Position numbers and translations under genes: made by a program. The notes beneath the pieces are model-generated. The model was not told the origin of the DNA and searched no databases. It saw only the letters and a program-made list of their open reading frames with translations. Positions 2,098-10,858 of a DNA stretch of 64,000 nucleotides are shown here, piece by piece. Origin of the DNA: Bacteroidia bacterium (GTDB lineage: Bacteria > Bacteroidota > Ignavibacteria > SZUA-365); contig JAOSJT010000001.1 of assembly GCA_027493955.1 (NCBI GenBank), positions 5,132,552 to 5,196,551 of the forward strand. Direction: 5' to 3'. Position 1 is the first letter of the stretch. Each line of letters opens with the position of its first letter.

Positions 2098-2772
2098 TCA
2101 AAATTGTTCGTCGTCGAAGTACATGCTTACCTGGCTGACGCCGGGGACGGCCTGGAGATCGCGGAGGAAACGCTGGTTCTGATCGCCGTCGCGGAGCTGT
2201 ACGTAGTAGGCGATGTCTATGCGCTCGGCCTCGCCGGGTGCGGTGATGTTGACCATGCGCTGTCGCTTGCAGTAACGATGCAGTACGTCGAGATAGGGGG
2301 GCTGCTCGCCGCCGTTGGTGTGATACGAGAATTGCAGCAGGTACTCGCGGCGCTGCGCTCCGAATATGGGTACGCGGGCGAGCACGAGTATGATGCCGCC
2401 GATAAGCGTCGTACCGATGTAAGCGATGGCCAGCGCGCCGGATCCGGCGGCAAGGCCGACTCCCAACGCGAAGAAGATGAACACGATGTCTATGGTGTCC
2501 TTCACCGCCGTGCGGAATCGGATGATGGACATGGCGCCCACCAGACCGAACGCCCGCGCGAGATTGTTGCCGATGATCATGATCACCATGGTCGTGATCA
2601 GCGTCAGCAGTATCATGGAACTGACGAAGGAGGGCGAATAGCCGGGTCCCTTGTACGTCTTGCGATACAGCCACGATATCACCACGCCGCAAATGAACGC
2701 GGTGAGGAAATTGACGAGTATCTCGCCGACGGAGAGGGGAAAGAGATCGAGTTGTTGCAGATCGGGAAACAT
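2098..2772 (-). CDS. DUF4956 integral membrane protein
   Basis: The ATG at 2772 gives 224 residues beginning MFPDLQQLDLFPLSVG. Four or so hydrophobic segments follow (around residues 17-36, 47-72, 88-112 and 112-132), with the conserved stretch GLVGAMSIIRFRTAVKD in the middle that is typical of DUF4956. A soluble C-terminal domain of about 85 residues ends in MYFDDEQF. The reading frame extends upstream to 3000, but that part overlaps the VTC gene and has no hydrophobic or conserved character. The start is 14 bases after the VTC stop. DUF4956 proteins usually sit next to VTC-domain polymerases. Their function is not established; acting as the membrane partner that anchors or passes polyphosphate is inference. 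Confidence 0.88.
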   Translation of the reverse strand: MFPDLQQLDLFPLSVGEILVNFLTAFICGVVISWLYRKTYKGPGYSPSFVSSMILLTLITTMVIMIIGNNLARAFGLVGAMSIIRFRTAVKDTIDIVFIFFALGVGLAAGSGALAIAYIGTTLIGGIILVLARVPIFGAQRREYLLQFSYHTNGGEQPPYLDVLHRYCKRQRMVNITAPGEAERIDIAYYVQLRDGDQNQRFLRDLQAVPGVSQVSMYFDDEQF

Positions 2773-2786
2773 GCTGCAAAGGTGCT

Positions 2787-3596
2787 TCAGTGTGCCGGAA
2801 AAATCTTCGCCGCAGATGCTTGTCCGCGGGAAGCCGTGAGGTTGACGATGCGTTCGCGCTGTCGTGAAATACTGAAATCGCGATGCGAATCCAGGCAAAT
2901 GGTGTATTTGGACAGCGCCATGCGCTTCAGCTCGTGTCGCTGTATGATCTGCCGCAGCGCCAGCGGAACGCCGGTGGTGAACTTCACCTCCAGTATGCAA
3001 TGCCGTTGCATGGCCGCGATGCTGCGCTTTCCGTCATACAAGCCGTCCAACCCGGGCATGAACACGCTGCGCAGATTGCGGTCGATGGTGACTCGCAAAT
3101 CGGAGGAAAACCGTCCGACGAAGGGCTCGCGCTCATACACGATGAGTATCACCGGCCGGAGCGTATCCTTGCGGTAATGATAGAAAAAGCGCTCCGCGTT
3201 GCTTTTATTGATGGCGTCGCCTTTGTACGGGAGTATGTATTTCTCTATGTCCTGCCCTGCGAACAGCGCTTCGACGTTCTCCGCCGCCAGCGCGGCACGG
3301 TACTTGGTCAGCAGGCCCGCTTCCTTGCGCTTGATTTCCAGATAGGCCAGGTCCCCCGGCTTGCGCTCGTTGTATGCACGGACGCGGAATTTCCGGCGCT
3401 GCCGCTCGCCGCCGATTTTTTCGCGGTATGCGGAATATGCGGCATCATCAAAATAAATGGAACGCACGGTATAGGATCCACGTCCCGTCTTGTCCGCCCA
3501 GGGATCGAGATCGGTGAGCGGTAACAGCTCGTGCCGCACGGCCTCCAGTGCTTCCAGCGGCAACAGATATTTGTATTCGAGCTTGGGGTAAGGCAT
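2787..3596 (-). CDS. VTC-domain polyphosphate polymerase
   Basis: This 269-residue protein has the VTC catalytic-tunnel pattern: EYKY at 7-10, SIYFDD at 46-51, the basic strand RKFRVRAYNER at 68-78, YLEIKRK at 85-91, VYERE at 153-157, the acidic/basic pair LEVKF at 202-206 and SKY at 229-231. In yeast Vtc4 the same fold polymerises ATP gamma-phosphate into inorganic polyphosphate; bacterial members are assigned from that homology. There is no signal peptide, so it should act on the cytoplasmic side, probably with DUF4956. It starts two bases past the adaptor gene's stop, so it is surely co-transcribed. Alternative: a CYTH/VTC-like triphosphate hydrolase, less likely with this neighbourhood. 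Confidence 0.88.
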   Translation of the reverse strand: MPYPKLEYKYLLPLEALEAVRHELLPLTDLDPWADKTGRGSYTVRSIYFDDAAYSAYREKIGGERQRRKFRVRAYNERKPGDLAYLEIKRKEAGLLTKYRAALAAENVEALFAGQDIEKYILPYKGDAINKSNAERFFYHYRKDTLRPVILIVYEREPFVGRFSSDLRVTIDRNLRSVFMPGLDGLYDGKRSIAAMQRHCILEVKFTTGVPLALRQIIQRHELKRMALSKYTICLDSHRDFSISRQRERIVNLTASRGQASAAKIFPAH

Positions 3597-3598
3597 CG

Positions 3599-4666
3599 CT
3601 ACTCAAACATCTTTCGCAAGGTTTCCATTGCCCAGGCGGCGGGACGCACAGGCGGAGCGGTAAGACTGCATCGCGCCAACATGCCGCCGCTCACGCCGGC
3701 ATCGCAGTGTTCGATGCGCGCGATCACGGTGCACACGGGACGTCTTCCAATGTAGTGAACATTGCGGTCAATCCGCTCCACGCGCGCGCTGCCGCCCAGG
3801 CCCGTCCGGGGTATGGTAAAATCAATCGGCTCACCGGGCGCGATCAGCCCGAGATCGGGGAGCTCGATGGGCACGACGAGCAATTGCTCCGTGATGTCCG
3901 ATATGACGAGCAGTGTGTCCACTGCCCAGGACGAGCGCTGCACGCCGCTCACCGGCGTAATGAAGGTGTTCTGACGCATGAGACCGCGGAGTTTCTCCAG
4001 CTGGTCCCGCAGGGAGAGCGCGTTGGCTTCCGCGGCGCGCACGTCTTCGGGTTTCAGGCCGGTGCTTGCGGTGCGCAGTCCCGCTTCCGCCAGTTCCACA
4101 TTGATGCGGAGTTGCCGGAGCCGATCCGCCGATATCTCGAACAGTTCATCGGAAATCGTGTTTTTACTGTGCAGCTCGGTCTGCCGGGCGTGAATTTTTT
4201 CCTGCTCGTCGCGCGCGGCCTTCGCGAAGGCGAGCCGCTGCCGGGCCTCCTCGATCAGCGACGCCTTCTCTCCGCTGCGCGCGGAGGCGACGGTCGCCTC
4301 GGCGACGGACAAAGCGCCTTCCAATGCGGAAATCTGCTGCATCAGCGCGTACGACACTATCCATCCCACCGTGTCGCCGCGCAGCACTTCGCCTCCGCGC
4401 AGGCGCTCGGAGAGCACGAAACTCATGGCGTCTCCGCGGTCCACCTGCGTCATGGTGCAGTGCTCCACCGCGCCGCTGCGATTGTCGCGCAGCAGCGAAA
4501 CGATCTGTCCGTTGTCCGTGCGCAGCAATACCCATTCCCGGGCGGACGCGACACTGCCGCGCACGCTGAGCGAGCGGGGGATATCCACCGGCAGCAGGAG
4601 CACGACGACGATGAGCAGGACAATTGCCGCGATGATGGAATATGTTCTTCGGCTGATCTGGAGCAT
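3599..4666 (-). CDS. HlyD-like periplasmic adaptor (membrane fusion) protein
   Basis: Starting at 4666 (MLQISRRTYS) the product has 355 residues. One N-terminal membrane helix (about 8-27) is followed by a short beta segment, an alpha-helical hairpin rich in Ala/Glu/Arg (about 95-220, with the ISDELFEISADRL turn seen in HlyD-type adaptors), then beta-rich barrel parts ending near the C-terminus. Adaptors of this family link an inner-membrane transporter to an outer-membrane exit. No ABC or RND transporter lies beside it. Instead it is coupled directly to the VTC polymerase, which suggests a dedicated export or anchoring role. The frame extends upstream to 4903, but that part overlaps the end of the sulfotransferase gene. 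Confidence 0.75.
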   Translation of the reverse strand: MLQISRRTYSIIAAIVLLIVVVLLLPVDIPRSLSVRGSVASAREWVLLRTDNGQIVSLLRDNRSGAVEHCTMTQVDRGDAMSFVLSERLRGGEVLRGDTVGWIVSYALMQQISALEGALSVAEATVASARSGEKASLIEEARQRLAFAKAARDEQEKIHARQTELHSKNTISDELFEISADRLRQLRINVELAEAGLRTASTGLKPEDVRAAEANALSLRDQLEKLRGLMRQNTFITPVSGVQRSSWAVDTLLVISDITEQLLVVPIELPDLGLIAPGEPIDFTIPRTGLGGSARVERIDRNVHYIGRRPVCTVIARIEHCDAGVSGGMLARCSLTAPPVRPAAWAMETLRKMFE

Positions 4667-4721
4667 GATGGTACTGTCTGTGAGCGGGCGCGCCTGTGCG
4701 ATGCCCGCGGTGCTTCGGCTC

Positions 4722-6305
4722 TTATTCGCCCATGACGACGAGTTTGTGTGTGCGCATACCGGCTGCGCTGTACAGACGACACAGGTACATGCCGCCCGGG
4801 ACTTTTGCGCCCTGTGTATCCGTCCCGTCCCATGCCGCTTCCCACGTGCCGGGGCCGTTCGCTTCGCGGTCGAAGCGGGCGACTTCGCGTCCTGTGACGT
4901 CATGAATGCTGATGCGCACGGGACCGGCTTTCGCCACAGTGTAGGTCAGCACGGTGTGTCCCGAGAAGGGATTCGGATAATTCCGGATGCTGAAGTCAGC
5001 GATTTGCGTTTCACCGCCATCCGCGCTCGTGGTGTGCAGCGCCTTGAGGCCGGGATAATCGGGTGCATAGCGCAGCACGCGGGCGGTTTCGCGGCCGGTG
5101 TTGTAGGACCAGACGACCTCTCCGGAGGGCGTCACTTCCAGGAAGCGTCCTTTCGTGGCTTCGGAGATCAGCGTGTTGCCGTTGGGCAGGCGCTGATTGC
5201 CTCCGAGATGATTGGAGAAAAACGCGGTGCTGTTCGAATACGTCCACGCGGGTGTGGCGGGTCCGAACGCGGCGCCGCTTTCAAGAACGTAATTCCCCTG
5301 CGCATCACGCGGCGGTGTCAGTTCGGTGATGATGGAAGCCCTCGCTCGTGCGTTGTTGTTGAAAGCGAGAATGTTTCCTTCTCCCGGCAGTCCCTTCGGG
5401 ACCCACCACGGGCAGTGCACCACATCGAACACGGCGCTGCCGCTTCTGCCGTAGTTCGCGGGCCTGCCCCAGCGGTAGAGGATGTCGCCGCCCTTGCCGC
5501 GTCGTCCCCCTGTGTTGCCGGCCGCTTCCTCCGTCGTCGTGCTGTGGTCAATGACCCACAGTTCACTCTGATTATGTGAAGTGATGACGATTTCGTCCCG
5601 ATCCGGATTGTAGCTGATGCCGTTGACGTGCAGCCAATCCGCCGCCGACGGACCGAAACCGAGACTCGGCAGATTGACGTTCAGACGGCCGGGATGCTCG
5701 GATATCACTCCGTAATTCGGTTTGGCGGGATCTCTGTCCTGCACGAGATGGTCCCAGGCATGCCATTTCCACACGATCTCCCCGCCGCTCGGTCGGATGG
5801 GACGGACTTCCACGATGTGATCCGGCCACAGCGCCGCGTTCGTTGTGCGTCCCTTTGCCACGGCTTCGGCCGCGGATTTCACTTCATACGCGATCAGCAG
5901 AATGTTGCCGTTGGGCAGGGGCTCGATGTCGTGATGCGCGATATACGTTGCGCTGGAATAGGTGAATTCCCACACGACATTGCCAGTCCAGGTAATTTCC
6001 TGTATCAGTCCGGAGTACGCCGGTGCCTGCAATTGCGCGTTCGGCACTGTGGCGGGACGCAAAAGGTTGCCGTTTTCCAGAAGGTAGGCGCAATAGCCGC
6101 CGCTGCGCGCGTTCTGCCAGGTATGCACGACCTCATTCTTCATATTGATCAGGTACGTCGTCCTGCTGTTGTTCGGATTGTAGAGCGTGTAACCTTCCCA
6201 CGCGCTGATCTGGCCCTGCGCCGGGATGCAGACTGCAAGAAAAAGTACGGAAATATATGTGAAGATCGAGATGCGAGACATGTGACGGAGGAAAATCGTA
6301 CTCAT
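4722..6305 (-). CDS. Arylsulfotransferase-like secreted protein with T9SS sorting domain
   Basis: A protein of 527 residues. The start at 6305 has GAGGA seven bases upstream, and a signal peptide covers about 1-32. Residues 35-435 form a beta-propeller of the ASST/arylsulfotransferase type, with HHDIEPLPNGNILL, WLHVNGISYNPDRDEIVITSHNQ spread over two blades, and FDVVHCPWW. The histidines on these loops are the ones such enzymes use, but I cannot assign the active His without alignment. The last 85 residues are a T9SS type A sorting domain (NYPNPFSG..., GREVARFD, GGMYLCRL). It sits between CotH1 and the adaptor in a same-strand run. It may transfer sulfuryl groups or simply be a propeller used for binding. 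Confidence 0.85.
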   Translation of the reverse strand: MSTIFLRHMSRISIFTYISVLFLAVCIPAQGQISAWEGYTLYNPNNSRTTYLINMKNEVVHTWQNARSGGYCAYLLENGNLLRPATVPNAQLQAPAYSGLIQEITWTGNVVWEFTYSSATYIAHHDIEPLPNGNILLIAYEVKSAAEAVAKGRTTNAALWPDHIVEVRPIRPSGGEIVWKWHAWDHLVQDRDPAKPNYGVISEHPGRLNVNLPSLGFGPSAADWLHVNGISYNPDRDEIVITSHNQSELWVIDHSTTTEEAAGNTGGRRGKGGDILYRWGRPANYGRSGSAVFDVVHCPWWVPKGLPGEGNILAFNNNARARASIITELTPPRDAQGNYVLESGAAFGPATPAWTYSNSTAFFSNHLGGNQRLPNGNTLISEATKGRFLEVTPSGEVVWSYNTGRETARVLRYAPDYPGLKALHTTSADGGETQIADFSIRNYPNPFSGHTVLTYTVAKAGPVRISIHDVTGREVARFDREANGPGTWEAAWDGTDTQGAKVPGGMYLCRLYSAAGMRTHKLVVMGE

Positions 6306-6365
6306 CGGCGAATCCTCGTGATACGGTGTGATTGTGGCGGGGTTGCGTTCAAATGTGCGATCATG

Positions 6366-7922
6366 TCAACGGAGTTTGAGCACCTTGGTGCCGCTGCTGA
6401 AAAAGGAAGCATCGCCGCCTCCCGAAACGCGTAATTTCCAGATGAAGCTGCCCGACGGGAGCGTAGCAGCGGGAGCAGCGGTCTCATGCAATCCGGGTGT
6501 GAACCAGCCCAGAGCGTGGTCGAACACTATCCTGCCGGCCATGTCCACGGCGAGCAGCGACACGGCGCCGCCGTACAGTAATTGGAAACGCAGCATGCCC
6601 GCATCCGTGGCGGGATTGGGATAGACGTCGAAGAGCAGTATCGGATTGTTCGGGAGCACCGCGCCGGAGCCGCCGGCGAGATACGCGTCCGCCTGGGCGA
6701 TGACGCGCTCACTGCGGAGCTTTGCGAAGCGCAGCAGTCCCGGAATAGTCATGTTGATGCCGACCACAACATCTTTTTCTATATTGTCCAGGAACTGCTG
6801 ATAGCTGTACAGTTTGTGGGGATCCGCTTGTACCAGAGGATCGAGAAAGGTCTTCCAGTGCAGTACCCGCGTGGTCATGGAATCGAGGGACAGCGGGCCC
6901 TGCGCAAGCGCCCGAATGTAGCGCAGGTACTCGGAACGCAGAGAATCGTTTTCCAGAATGCGCGCGAAGGCGGGACGTTTTTCGAGAGAGGGAATGGAGA
7001 GAATGTCTTGCGTGATGACATTCCAGTTGTTGCTGTACGCGCCGAAGGCTTCGTTCGCATCCCAGGGAATGAACACGAAGCGTCCCGTGCTCTCATCGTC
7101 GTAGAGATAGAAGTTGCGTCCCGATCCGGTATAGCTGTCGAAATGCGACGCAGCCATGTTGAAGGCGTTCATGCGGATGCAGTTCCCGAGATCGAGCAGG
7201 GCGCCGGCGCGCTCGACGAAATGCGCGCCGGCGGTATGGTTGACGACGTCAATCATGGCCACAAGGCGCGACCAGTCGTTGGTGCTTTCATTCGTCTTGA
7301 GTTCGAATTCGCGCTCGTACTGCTCGCCGCCGTCGCCGCGGTACTCCAGCGTGGCGCCGTTATCCGCCGCTTTGTAGAGATTGAAGTCGTTATCCTCGAA
7401 ATGTCGGGACAGAAATTTCTTGTCCACCTGCTCAACCTGCGTGTACAGACCAAGCAGGGCGCCATCCACCGAAAGTGTCGCGAAAGCGGCGCGGGGCGAG
7501 GGGAGAATGGTGCGGAGAATGTCGTAGGCGAGTTTCTCGCGCATGAAGCTGGGATCCTTCACCCCGTTGGAGAAATTCAGGCGCGTGATGCCGAAGCAGC
7601 TCTGTTTGCTGCGGTATTCGTCGAACTTGAGCTTGAACGGTTTCTTGGGCGTGCTGCGCGACTGCACGAACGACGAGTTGCCCTTGTAGCGCACACCCAC
7701 GCTGTCGAACACCATGCCGTGGTACTCCACTCGGGCGGGGATGTACTCTTCGTCCTGATTGTAGTAGTACAGCAGACTGTCCTGCCAATGCTCCGTATAG
7801 AAATGAATGTTGAATTCGTGCACCACCGTGTCGTCGAAGAGCATCGCCGAGGAATCCGCTTCCTGCGCGCAGGCAACGGATGCGGTGAGGCCGATGACAA
7901 GAAGGTGGAGAAGAGCTTTCAT
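6366..7922 (-). CDS. CotH-family protein kinase-like, T9SS cargo
   Basis: A protein of 518 residues with a signal peptide ending near VACAQ (residue 20). The CotH pattern is clear: VRYKGNSS at 77-84, KKPFKLKF at 93-100, the helix SFMREKLAYDILR at 125-137, GLYTQVEQVDKKFL at 158-171 and the acidic motif WDANEAFG at 287-294. CotH proteins are atypical kinases that phosphorylate Bacillus spore coat proteins. The same fold occurs in many non-spore formers, where substrates are unknown. The C-terminal 80 residues form a T9SS sorting domain (VYPNPATD...), so the mature protein should be at the cell surface or outside. It starts 28 bases after the stop of the SUMF1-like gene. Confidence 0.9.
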   Translation of the reverse strand: MKALLHLLVIGLTASVACAQEADSSAMLFDDTVVHEFNIHFYTEHWQDSLLYYYNQDEEYIPARVEYHGMVFDSVGVRYKGNSSFVQSRSTPKKPFKLKFDEYRSKQSCFGITRLNFSNGVKDPSFMREKLAYDILRTILPSPRAAFATLSVDGALLGLYTQVEQVDKKFLSRHFEDNDFNLYKAADNGATLEYRGDGGEQYEREFELKTNESTNDWSRLVAMIDVVNHTAGAHFVERAGALLDLGNCIRMNAFNMAASHFDSYTGSGRNFYLYDDESTGRFVFIPWDANEAFGAYSNNWNVITQDILSIPSLEKRPAFARILENDSLRSEYLRYIRALAQGPLSLDSMTTRVLHWKTFLDPLVQADPHKLYSYQQFLDNIEKDVVVGINMTIPGLLRFAKLRSERVIAQADAYLAGGSGAVLPNNPILLFDVYPNPATDAGMLRFQLLYGGAVSLLAVDMAGRIVFDHALGWFTPGLHETAAPAATLPSGSFIWKLRVSGGGDASFFSSGTKVLKLR

Positions 7923-7949
7923 GAATGACTCGTTTTACGTACGCCGGAT

Positions 7950-8912
7950 TTACTGCGCGTTGCGCACGGTACGGAAGCCGATGAAATTGAACAGATAATC
8001 CGGCGTGCTGAAGCTTCGGTTCGACGCGCGGAGGTATGCGGCGTCGTTACCCCAGCTGCCCCCACGCAATGCGTGCCAGTTGCCTGCCGTCGGACCGGAG
8101 GGATCCGTCCCCGGACTCCCTGCATAATAGGTTTCGTCGTACCAGTCGTGGCACCATTCCCAGAGATTGCCGTGCATGTCGTGCAGGCCGTAGGCATTGG
8201 CCTTTCTCGACGCGACGCGTCGCGTACCGAAATCAGGTGAGTCGGAGCTGAGATTCCAGGAATTCCCCGCCCAGACGGAATAGGAGCCGAACTCCGTGCT
8301 GTCCGCCGGGGAGGCGGGATAGGATGCGAGATTCCTTCCCCACGAGAAATCGGACGCGTTGCCTCCGCGGCAGGCGTATTCCCATTCCGCCTCGGTCGGG
8401 AGACGGAAGCCATTGCGGCTCAGGTCGGCGGTAACGCCTTCGAGCGTGCAGCCATTGCCCGGCGTACCGAGAATGGCGGTATAGGTATAGACCGGATCCA
8501 GTCCCGCCTCGAGACTGCGGGCATTGCAGAACAACACCGCATCGCCCCATTCCGTCAGATAGGCCGGGTACGCGGTGCCGAGTCCGTACACTGCGCTCCA
8601 TGCCGGTGTGAGGTACGCCGGATAGCGTGCCTTCATGATGCGCTCGTATTCGCCCTGTGTCACTTCCGTGCTGTCCATCCAGAAATCGCGGGTGAAACTG
8701 ACGGTGTGTACCGGCCTCTCGTCTGCGTTTCCGCTGACGGAGCCCATGGAGAAATTCTTTCCTTTTGCCGTGATGCGCACAAGCGACCCGCTGCGTTCTA
8801 TCGTATTCGGCTGTGGATCGGGGGTGGTGGTACCGTCATCGGAATCGCAGGCGGGAAGGAGCAGCGCGATTGCGAATACGGCGAGCATGCTGATACGTGT
8901 GATCCGGTTCAT
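7950..8912 (-). CDS. SUMF1/formylglycine-generating-enzyme-fold lipoprotein lacking the catalytic cysteines
   Basis: The start at 8912 gives 320 residues with a lipoprotein signal (LLLPAC, Cys near 22). The remainder is a full SUMF1 domain: FSMGS near the start, DSTEVTQGEY, GFRLPTEAEWEYACRGG, the DMHGNLWEWCHDWYDE loop and LRGGSWGNDAAYLRASNR, ending GFRTVRN. In genuine FGE the segment after GGS carries two active-site cysteines; here those positions are occupied by other residues (N, D, A, Y, L), so sulfatase activation is unlikely. Such members often bind or modify other partners. It is the first gene after a well-formed promoter (9031-9061) and leads the run SUMF1-CotH-ASST-adaptor-VTC-DUF4956. 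The frame extends upstream to 9068 without coding character. Confidence 0.9.
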   Translation of the reverse strand: MNRITRISMLAVFAIALLLPACDSDDGTTTPDPQPNTIERSGSLVRITAKGKNFSMGSVSGNADERPVHTVSFTRDFWMDSTEVTQGEYERIMKARYPAYLTPAWSAVYGLGTAYPAYLTEWGDAVLFCNARSLEAGLDPVYTYTAILGTPGNGCTLEGVTADLSRNGFRLPTEAEWEYACRGGNASDFSWGRNLASYPASPADSTEFGSYSVWAGNSWNLSSDSPDFGTRRVASRKANAYGLHDMHGNLWEWCHDWYDETYYAGSPGTDPSGPTAGNWHALRGGSWGNDAAYLRASNRSFSTPDYLFNFIGFRTVRNAQ

Positions 8913-9030
8913 GATCAACTCATGGGTATGTGATGCGAGGATGTGGAATGAGCGATGTGTGGCTCGGGGAGAATGACAACCCCTGCCGTTGAAAAGTTTC
9001 AAACCGGAAAAACCCCACGTCCATATCTGT

Positions 9031-9061
9031 GGAAAATACGACGGTATTCTCTGTGACACAA
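9031..9061 (-). promoter_or_regulatory. Promoter for the SUMF1-CotH-ASST-adaptor-VTC-DUF4956 run (TTG-N20-TATTTTCC)
   Basis: Read on the minus strand, TTG (9061-9059) and TATTTTCC (9038-9031) are 20 bases apart, matching the Bacteroidota promoter form. Transcription would start near 9024, about 110 bases before the ATG at 8912. It suggests the six downstream genes can be transcribed apart from the second CotH gene. Confidence 0.55.
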
Positions 9062-9199
9062 TGCACATTCCCGTTCCATGTAATCACTTCCACGATTTGT
9101 GCCTGAACGCGGCAAAGGGAGGCGCGGAGCCTGTACCATCCGGTAGAGGCTGTCGTCGCGTCGCCTGTCACCGATGATTTCCACTGCGGACGGATGTGA

Positions 9200-10858
9200 C
9201 TATCCGCCTGCAGTGAGCAGAAGAGTCGCAACGGCTCGCGGCACGCCGTTCACAGAGAGGAAGACGCCGTACCAACCTCTCGGAAGCGAAGCCGTTTCAA
9301 TGCTGCAGGCGCCGCGACCGTCATCTCCTATCCAGATTGTGCTGTTCCGCACTTCGCGGCCGAGGATGTCGCGTATGCGTACTTCGGCGGCTGCAGGACC
9401 GGGTGACTGCACGTCGATGTGCGTCACGTCAACGGAAGGTTGCGGATGCACAGTGAGGGAGAACGCTGTTGGTGTCGCCTCTGATGGAGGGATATCGTTT
9501 GTGGGAGCGTCGTCGGGCAGAGCGATGGATGCGATATGCGTATCCATCCACGACATTCGGCTCGAGATCCAATTCCGGAGGTAGGAGATTTCCTCCTCCC
9601 AGGTGTTCCCGACAAAATAATTCGGCCATATCGCCTGACCCAGCAAGGCCCAGCGTTGAAAATGCCGTTGCTGCGCCTCACCAAGCAACGCGGTGAGAGA
9701 ATCAATACGCCGGTCTGTGACCAGTGACGAGAGTATGGAGTTGCGCAGTGTGCGCCAGCGTGCAACGAGCGCGTCGACAAACACCGAATCCTGCAACAGT
9801 CTTCTCCACCAGAATGGTACCCTGCCGTAATGGGAACGCCATCCGGATACGAGCTCGGCATCCGCATAATTTGCGTTTCCGAAAGCGATGTTGAAATCCC
9901 ACACCGGACCGGCGACAAGCCGTCCATCCTTGGAATCTCTGTTCTTATGGAGGTAGAGACTCGCAACAAAGCCGTCAACATTATTGGCGACTTCATTGAT
10001 GAGTATGTAATCCACGAAAGAGGGTACGTTGAGCCAGGCGGGATAGCCGGTATGGCAATCGGCGAACGAGGATGATCGCATCATGTCTTCGAACGCTTTG
10101 ATGTAGTCCTGGATGTACCAACGTTGATACAGGTTGATGTTGTTCGACGTGGGGTAGATATGCCAGTACACATAGTAACCCGAGGAGTCATAGGCCCCCG
10201 GGAAACCGAGCTGGGAATCTTTCCCGTTTCCATCAATCGCGATGATGTACCCTCCTGTCAGAGCGCTTCCGGATTCGACCGAGGAGTCGAGTTTCGCAAT
10301 GTCCACGCGGTTCTTATCGCGTTTTATCCGCTCAAGCAGTACGTACACACCCTGATAACGGTCGTTGAGCACCAACTCGCAGAAGCGGGTACGGCTCGCG
10401 TACCACCCCATATCTCTCGCGATCTGATAGACAAGCACATTGCGTATCAGTGATTTGTCCACATAGGGCGCATAGAGAATCCAATCGTGCTCCTGAGGGA
10501 ACTCGCAGAGTGAGACGTTGCACTCCTGATTGAGTGTGTCCCGCGTTTCGATCAGATACTGTTTCTGTTCATACTGCAACGAACTGTTTCCGCGCAGTTC
10601 GATGCCGATCCTCCCGTCAAAGTCCGACGGAGTATCGCAGATCGTGTTTCTTCCTTCATGGCGTCGTAAGACGCGCATGGACGCTGCCACCTTCGGCTCA
10701 TCCGGAATGGGTTGTCCGTCCGTCTGGATAATGATGATGGGAAGATTCGAAGAGGTCAACACCGTGTCCTGCGCGTAAGCTCCTTCGACGCTGCCGGTGA
10801 TGATGGCGAGGAAAAACGTAATGCACGCTCTCCCGGCCGGGATAAGAGAATTGTTCAT
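9200..10858 (-). CDS. Second CotH-family kinase-like protein, T9SS-type C-terminus
   Basis: A protein of 552 residues with an N-terminal signal peptide (cleavage near AYAQ, residue 30). CotH landmarks: IELRGNSS at 86-93, the helix VDKSLIRNVLVYQIARDM at 133-150, GVYVLLERIKRDKNRVDI at 170-187 and VWDFNIAFG at 319-327. The C-terminal 85 residues resemble a T9SS sorting domain (HPQPSVDVTHI, LGREVRNS, LPRGWYGV) though the usual YPNP is changed to HPQP. It lies upstream of the SUMF1-led run on the same strand, separated by 287 bases that carry a separate promoter. Substrate unknown; the pairing of two CotH genes with a VTC polymerase suggests phosphorylation or phosphate-polymer chemistry at the surface. 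Confidence 0.87.
   Translation of the reverse strand: MNNSLIPAGRACITFFLAIITGSVEGAYAQDTVLTSSNLPIIIIQTDGQPIPDEPKVAASMRVLRRHEGRNTICDTPSDFDGRIGIELRGNSSLQYEQKQYLIETRDTLNQECNVSLCEFPQEHDWILYAPYVDKSLIRNVLVYQIARDMGWYASRTRFCELVLNDRYQGVYVLLERIKRDKNRVDIAKLDSSVESGSALTGGYIIAIDGNGKDSQLGFPGAYDSSGYYVYWHIYPTSNNINLYQRWYIQDYIKAFEDMMRSSSFADCHTGYPAWLNVPSFVDYILINEVANNVDGFVASLYLHKNRDSKDGRLVAGPVWDFNIAFGNANYADAELVSGWRSHYGRVPFWWRRLLQDSVFVDALVARWRTLRNSILSSLVTDRRIDSLTALLGEAQQRHFQRWALLGQAIWPNYFVGNTWEEEISYLRNWISSRMSWMDTHIASIALPDDAPTNDIPPSEATPTAFSLTVHPQPSVDVTHIDVQSPGPAAAEVRIRDILGREVRNSTIWIGDDGRGACSIETASLPRGWYGVFLSVNGVPRAVATLLLTAGG

Follow-up and report, generated by a model that had tools for sequence, protein, structure and literature searches.

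Why would a diderm bacterium whose genome carries two PPK1 genes also encode a VTC-type polyphosphate polymerase, next to a periplasmic adaptor and secreted kinases? The question is raised by a 64,000-nucleotide stretch of DNA (the window) from a Bacteroidia bacterium (Ignavibacteria; SZUA-365; GenBank assembly GCA_027493955.1, contig JAOSJT010000001.1, positions 5,132,552 to 5,196,551), in which an HlyD-like adaptor (4666-3599), a VTC-domain protein (3596-2787) and a DUF4956 protein (2772-2098) are encoded one after the other on the minus strand. Gene coordinates are positions in the window unless another locus is named, and gene order is read along the minus strand. Polyphosphate storage is a less likely role for the VTC protein, since with two PPK1 genes storage does not need VTC. 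We find that adaptor, VTC and DUF4956 form a conserved unit, and we lean toward the view that with this core diderm bacteria both synthesize polyphosphate and export it across the whole envelope, where it may supply exported CotH kinases.

The linkage was analyzed in 80 named loci from a GTDB genome scan with a VTC alignment, distributed over Bacteroidota, Krumholzibacteriota, Zixibacteria, KSB1, Calditrichota, Neomarinimicrobiota, Latescibacterota, Eisenbacteria, Stahlbacteria, WOR-3 and Chloroflexi. The same adaptor family is located immediately upstream of VTC and on the same strand at 71 of the 80 loci, in about ten phyla, and DUF4956 is found at 75. Where all three genes could be scored, their order is identical (68 of 68 loci). 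The initial annotation had presented the joining of adaptor and VTC as particular to this locus, and had proposed a comparison across lineages; the pair is not confined to the window, which excludes the refuting condition that the initial annotation had set, and the comparison returns adaptor-VTC-DUF4956 as a fixed gene set. Pairwise distances among the three proteins co-vary (Mantel r 0.76-0.79; null at most 0.13). Strong adaptor homologues among relatives directly precede VTC and DUF4956 in all cases but one, and nearly all genomes with a strong adaptor match have VTC. No adaptor is present in the Chloroflexi and Bacillota loci examined.

The VTC protein (269 aa, soluble; PF09359, 3.3e-38) matches Vtc4 structures at 6e-16, and a sequence search for structural relatives gave Vtc subunits exclusively, with Vtc4 first. 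Across 18 long-type and 7 short-type members, residues K9, R71, R73, E87, K89, K98, D172, E203, K205 and K230 do not vary, and nearly all polymerase residues that we checked are invariant across both types. R71, R73 and E203 align with Arg-264, Arg-266 and Glu-426 of yeast Vtc4, substitution of which impairs VTC (PMC9911596). The protein is thus, by sequence, a VTC/TTM domain with the catalytic tunnel residues, as expected of the predicted polyphosphate polymerase originally annotated here. It differs from eukaryotic VTC proteins in that it consists of the VTC domain alone, without SPX or a membrane domain of its own, and a membrane partner would be supplied in trans by DUF4956.

DUF4956 (PF16316, 3.8e-13; MgtC/SapB match, 5e-5) is an MgtC-like protein with five predicted membrane helices and a C-terminal ACT-like domain. 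In fold searches the only matches, ACT-like domains and the C-terminal domain of MgtC, had marginal E-values. An IIRFRT motif is invariant in the DUF4956 alignment, and almost every member has R[FY]RT (72 of 76 within the named loci), the short type included. We can infer, not show, that the buried basic residues of this motif line a polyphosphate path. In one lineage (L057/L100) DUF4956 is spread over two frames, corresponding to a broken gene or a sequencing frameshift.

The adaptor (355 aa) has no Pfam match above threshold but is recognized by NCBIfam (2e-10), by a PDB profile search (AcrA/EmrA/MacA) and by its predicted fold. An AlphaFold model (pLDDT 86.6) has MacA and EmrA as top fold matches and reveals an N-terminal transmembrane anchor, a coiled α-hairpin and barrel domains, so that the predicted structure is that of a periplasmic adaptor (membrane fusion protein). 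The hairpin tip contains Arg-161, Leu-165 and Ser-172 (RxxxLxxxxxxS at 161-172), the RLS motif by which adaptors bind TolC (PMC3391258). The HlyD-like identity proposed earlier is thus consistent with both the modeled fold and the TolC-docking tip. In 77 aligned type I adaptors the Arg is present in all 77, the Leu in 66 and Ser or Thr in 59. About eight outer-membrane efflux protein (OEP) genes are found in the window genome, none of them in this operon. An ABC, MFS or RND transporter, which a tripartite pump or type I secretion system would have beside its adaptor, is encoded neither in the unit nor among its constant neighbors. DUF4956 apparently occupies the transporter's place beside the adaptor. 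The adaptor gene of one genome (G229; L074/L160) is split in two, again either a broken gene or a sequencing frameshift.

Other lineages combine VTC and DUF4956 with different envelope components. Our Bacteroidota-phylum sample comprises 395 genomes, 57 of which have VTC; we examined 62 of 65 listed VTC sites. DUF4956 is nearby at all 62 loci, and 57 of them have one of three types of envelope-exit gene: the window-type adaptor in the arrangement adaptor-VTC-DUF4956 (29 loci), a second HlyD family (Pfam HlyD_3) located mostly after DUF4956 (13 loci), or a DUF2490 outer-membrane β-barrel (PF10677) with no adaptor (15 loci). None of the three was seen at the remaining five. A TolC/OEP gene lies within the operon CotH-DUF4956-HlyD-TolC/OEP-VTC (L252) and in an adaptor-DUF4956-TolC/OEP operon of genome G208 (L211, 6935-10206). 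In our view, the recruitment of unrelated outer-envelope parts to the VTC-DUF4956 pair is the best evidence for outward transport.

Four further genes precede the core in the window. All seven open reading frames are located on the minus strand between 2098 and 10858, with gaps of 27, 60, 55, 2 and 14 bases from the SUMF1-fold gene to DUF4956; strand, families and short spacing agree with the initial annotation. CotH, VTC and DUF4956 belong to one cluster, in which an ASST-like gene and the adaptor gene stand between the second CotH gene and VTC. The longer cassette lipoprotein-CotH-ASST-adaptor-VTC-DUF4956 is found repeatedly within the family to which the window belongs. CotH-1 (10858-9200) is separated from the SUMF1-fold gene by 287 bases, and among family relatives viewed with wide flanks only one (G006) encodes a homologue of CotH-1 close to the cassette; CotH-1 is only loosely tied to the unit and the least attached of the seven genes. 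A promoter had been proposed in front of the SUMF1-fold gene. Scanning 8912-9200 for σ70 promoters returned no promoter and no excess over shuffles, and no site of the Bacteroidota -7 type (TANNTTTG) was found in the same interval.

CotH-1 (552 aa; signal peptide; PF08757, 1.5e-61) and CotH-2 (7922-6366; 518 aa; PF08757, 3e-64) are predicted exported CotH-family kinases. CotH-2 aligns with the CotH structure 5jd9 (E 3e-14) and retains the FD and IPWD acidic motifs; the corresponding alignment of CotH-1 is weak. Domain and catalytic acidic motifs identify a putative CotH kinase. The window genome has seven CotH genes, five of them beyond this cluster, including one in a 1537-aa frame. In the Bacteroidota sample, CotH occurs in 55 of 57 genomes with VTC and in 80 of 338 without it (Fisher 3e-27, with related genomes not being independent), and thus VTC nearly implies CotH but not vice versa. 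A CotH-domain gene is present at 28 of the 80 named loci, mostly adjoining the triad; here only the kinase domain was used in the profile, because tails of the type IX secretion system (T9SS) inflate matches.

The ASST-like β-propeller (6305-4722; PF05935 Arylsulfotrans, 3.4e-21) carries a clear T9SS tail (TIGR04183, 4.6e-8), and the T9SS translocon protein SprA is encoded in the genome. The tails of the two CotH proteins, for which T9SS export had been proposed earlier, are weaker. At the position of AssT Arg-374, which we take to be the active-site arginine, the window protein has His-244, and its aligned relatives have His as well; it does not look like the ordinary sulfotransferase suggested by its first annotation. 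ASST-like genes also adjoin CotH and VTC at L089, L091, L092 and L139, loci of Stahlbacteria/WOR-3 and of one unclassified genome, and they are present in three barrel-type loci (L218, L224 and L251). The SUMF1/FGE-fold (C-lectin-like) lipoprotein (8912-7950; PF03781 FGE-sulfatase, 4e-48) is kept at the same place within the window's family. When aligned with FGE structures it has RGGSWGNDAAYLR where FGE has RGGSYLCHDSYCNRYR; the active-site cysteine pair is absent, and we rejected FGE activity for this reason.

Several other features were seen around these loci. In eight FCB loci the gene next after DUF4956 encodes an SdiA-regulated/phytase-like propeller, and in Aminobacter VTC is followed by a phytase-like gene (6642-7568 of L253); a further partner acting on phosphoesters is possible. 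Just downstream of the window operon (1566-2082) there are three tandem repeats of about 170 bases, 89-91% alike, made of GTTAAACG palindromic units, the short repeat unit recurring dozens of times across the genome. Further downstream are a tRNA-Lys (1397-1470) and a RadC/JAB-like protein with a VHNHPSG motif (454-1230).

We propose that VTC polymerizes polyphosphate from ATP at the cytosolic face of the inner membrane and that DUF4956, the sole other inner-membrane protein of the conserved unit, would pass the growing chain across this membrane, by analogy with the membrane domains of yeast Vtc1/3/4. The adaptor would dock on both DUF4956 and a TolC-type channel, the gene of which lies at another site in the genome; in other lineages a different HlyD protein or the DUF2490 barrel may provide the outer-membrane step. 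Outside the cell, T9SS-exported CotH kinases and the ASST-like transferase could modify surface proteins or glycans. These enzymes would most likely be linked to the core through exported polyphosphate, which would either serve them as phosphoryl donor or belong with their products to one surface polymer. As there is no ATP outside, and as an exporter of a phosphoanhydride polymer is joined to secreted kinases, a donor role would be the most economical reason for the association; literature searches gave no paper that addresses such a role. The comparisons themselves establish gene content and order, conservation, residues and folds, whereas the chemistry, the direction of transport, the complex and the use of the polymer by CotH are inferred. 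The complete chain, in which polyphosphate leaves by VTC-DUF4956 and adaptor/TolC or DUF2490 barrel and feeds secreted CotH kinases without ATP in many phyla, is a tentative proposal that we hold with considerable doubt.

A number of observations weigh against an exporter. Our literature search turned up no demonstrated activity for any bacterial VTC. The DUF4956 model is of moderate quality only (pLDDT 77, pTM 0.54). In the docking motif, the serine is replaced by Ala or Pro in 18 of the 77 type I adaptors, and the motif is seen in only some type II adaptors. Genomes with VTC-DUF4956 and no exit gene nearby exist. Stahlbacteria/WOR-3 (L089, L092 and L139) and Aminobacter, all taken as diderm, have VTC-DUF4956 without an adjoining adaptor, which rules out a strict rule of adaptors in diderms and none in monoderms. 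Genome G208 has the adaptor-DUF4956-TolC operon but lacks any PF09359 VTC, and hence this part may carry something else. Finally, S. intermedius mutants deleted for DUF4956 or CotH showed an aggregation phenotype, whereas none was reported for the VTC deletion (PMC12345266), which speaks against a strict need of CotH for VTC in that organism.

An accessory system for a surface polysaccharide is the alternative that survives best, although we consider it rather unlikely. VTC, DUF4956 and CotH would then act on an exopolysaccharide by regulating or decorating it, and the adaptor would export that polymer or a regulator instead of polyphosphate. CotH, polyphosphate polymerase and DUF4956 have indeed been described as accessory to the pel loci of Gram-positive bacteria (PMC7112168), and a 2025 study of S. 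intermedius (SIR_1592-1594) describes MgtC-like and ACT domains and did not find the synteny outside Pel (PMC12345266). Deletion of DUF4956 or CotH alters the Pel level. We find CotH-VTC-DUF4956 frequently outside Pel loci, commonly in FCB bacteria, and also in other polysaccharide clusters, namely on Pseudobutyrivibrio and Planococcus plasmids amid glycosyltransferase genes (adjoining one in Planococcus). The complete window genome, however, has no PelF-type DUF3492 gene, and the locus does not lie next to pel; we therefore rejected a Pel context. The identified genes that repeatedly surround the 80 loci include no polysaccharide synthase; the recurring functional neighbors there are CotH and ASST.

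Polyphosphate might also be kept inside the cell, or be sent to the periplasm only, as a phosphate store or chaperone, with the adaptor merely stabilizing the synthase complex. The five Bacteroidota loci, Aminobacter and Stahlbacteria that lack an exit gene beside VTC-DUF4956 would fit such a function. Against this, the TolC-docking motif is kept, TolC is present in two related operons, other lineages use unrelated outer-membrane parts, and the genome already has two PPK1 genes. This makes the explanation improbable. Even less probable is a VTC that has drifted to another triphosphate-tunnel reaction, for example that of a triphosphatase, with DUF4956 and adaptor acting as an MgtC-like phosphate or metal-stress sensor or as an efflux device. 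Triphosphate tunnel enzymes have several activities. DUF4956 resembles MgtC and has an ACT-like cytosolic domain, a likeness also described in PMC12345266. The near-complete invariance of polymerase residues across long and short VTCs and the exclusive match to Vtc subunits argue against drift. Chance adjacency of an ordinary drug-efflux adaptor to VTC, conceivable given how often these genomes encode HlyD-like adaptors, is ruled out by the presence of one specific subfamily beside VTC at 71 of 80 loci, its fixed order and matched evolution, and the near-constant company of VTC in genomes with that subfamily.

The envelope-spanning synthase and exporter that we favor would bear on extracellular polyphosphate, which has already been discussed for several microbes. 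The open-access literature that we found describes no dedicated route by which bacteria export it and contains no paper linking VTC to an adaptor, TolC or DUF2490, which is weak evidence of absence. The unit is a definite, deletable gene set for testing polyphosphate export, and the CotH-VTC-DUF4956 module is freed from its supposed tie to the Pel polysaccharide. The recurring linkage suggests that cells send polyphosphate outside, perhaps powering protein phosphorylation without ATP; if true, this would answer how secreted kinases act where ATP is absent.

The unit can be compared with several known systems. It shares with the eukaryotic VTC complex (Vtc1/3/4) the TTM/VTC catalytic tunnel and an arrangement of polymer synthesis beside a membrane translocation part, but it lacks SPX and a Vtc1-type membrane domain, DUF4956 being the putative membrane part, and its path would be extended by a periplasmic adaptor and by an exit in the outer membrane. 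The Gram-positive Pel module has the same three families side by side and a secreted CotH, whereas the window locus is devoid of Pel genes and adds an HlyD adaptor, an ASST-like protein, an FGE-fold lipoprotein and T9SS export. With the adaptors of tripartite efflux and type I secretion (MacA, EmrA, AcrA and HlyD), the window adaptor has the fold, the N-terminal anchor and the RLS α-hairpin in common, but its partner is apparently DUF4956 with a cytosolic polymerase rather than an ABC, MFS or RND transporter. The CotH proteins resemble the Bacillus spore-coat kinase CotH in kinase domain and acidic motifs and differ from it by their predicted export, T9SS-like tails and diderm host. The ASST-like protein belongs to the β-propeller family of E. 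coli arylsulfate sulfotransferase AssT and has its HxN motif, whereas the histidine that it and its relatives have at the Arg-374 position, and its T9SS tail, set it apart. Taken together, CotH-VTC-DUF4956 is known from Gram-positive Pel loci, and its diderm export version appears to be new.

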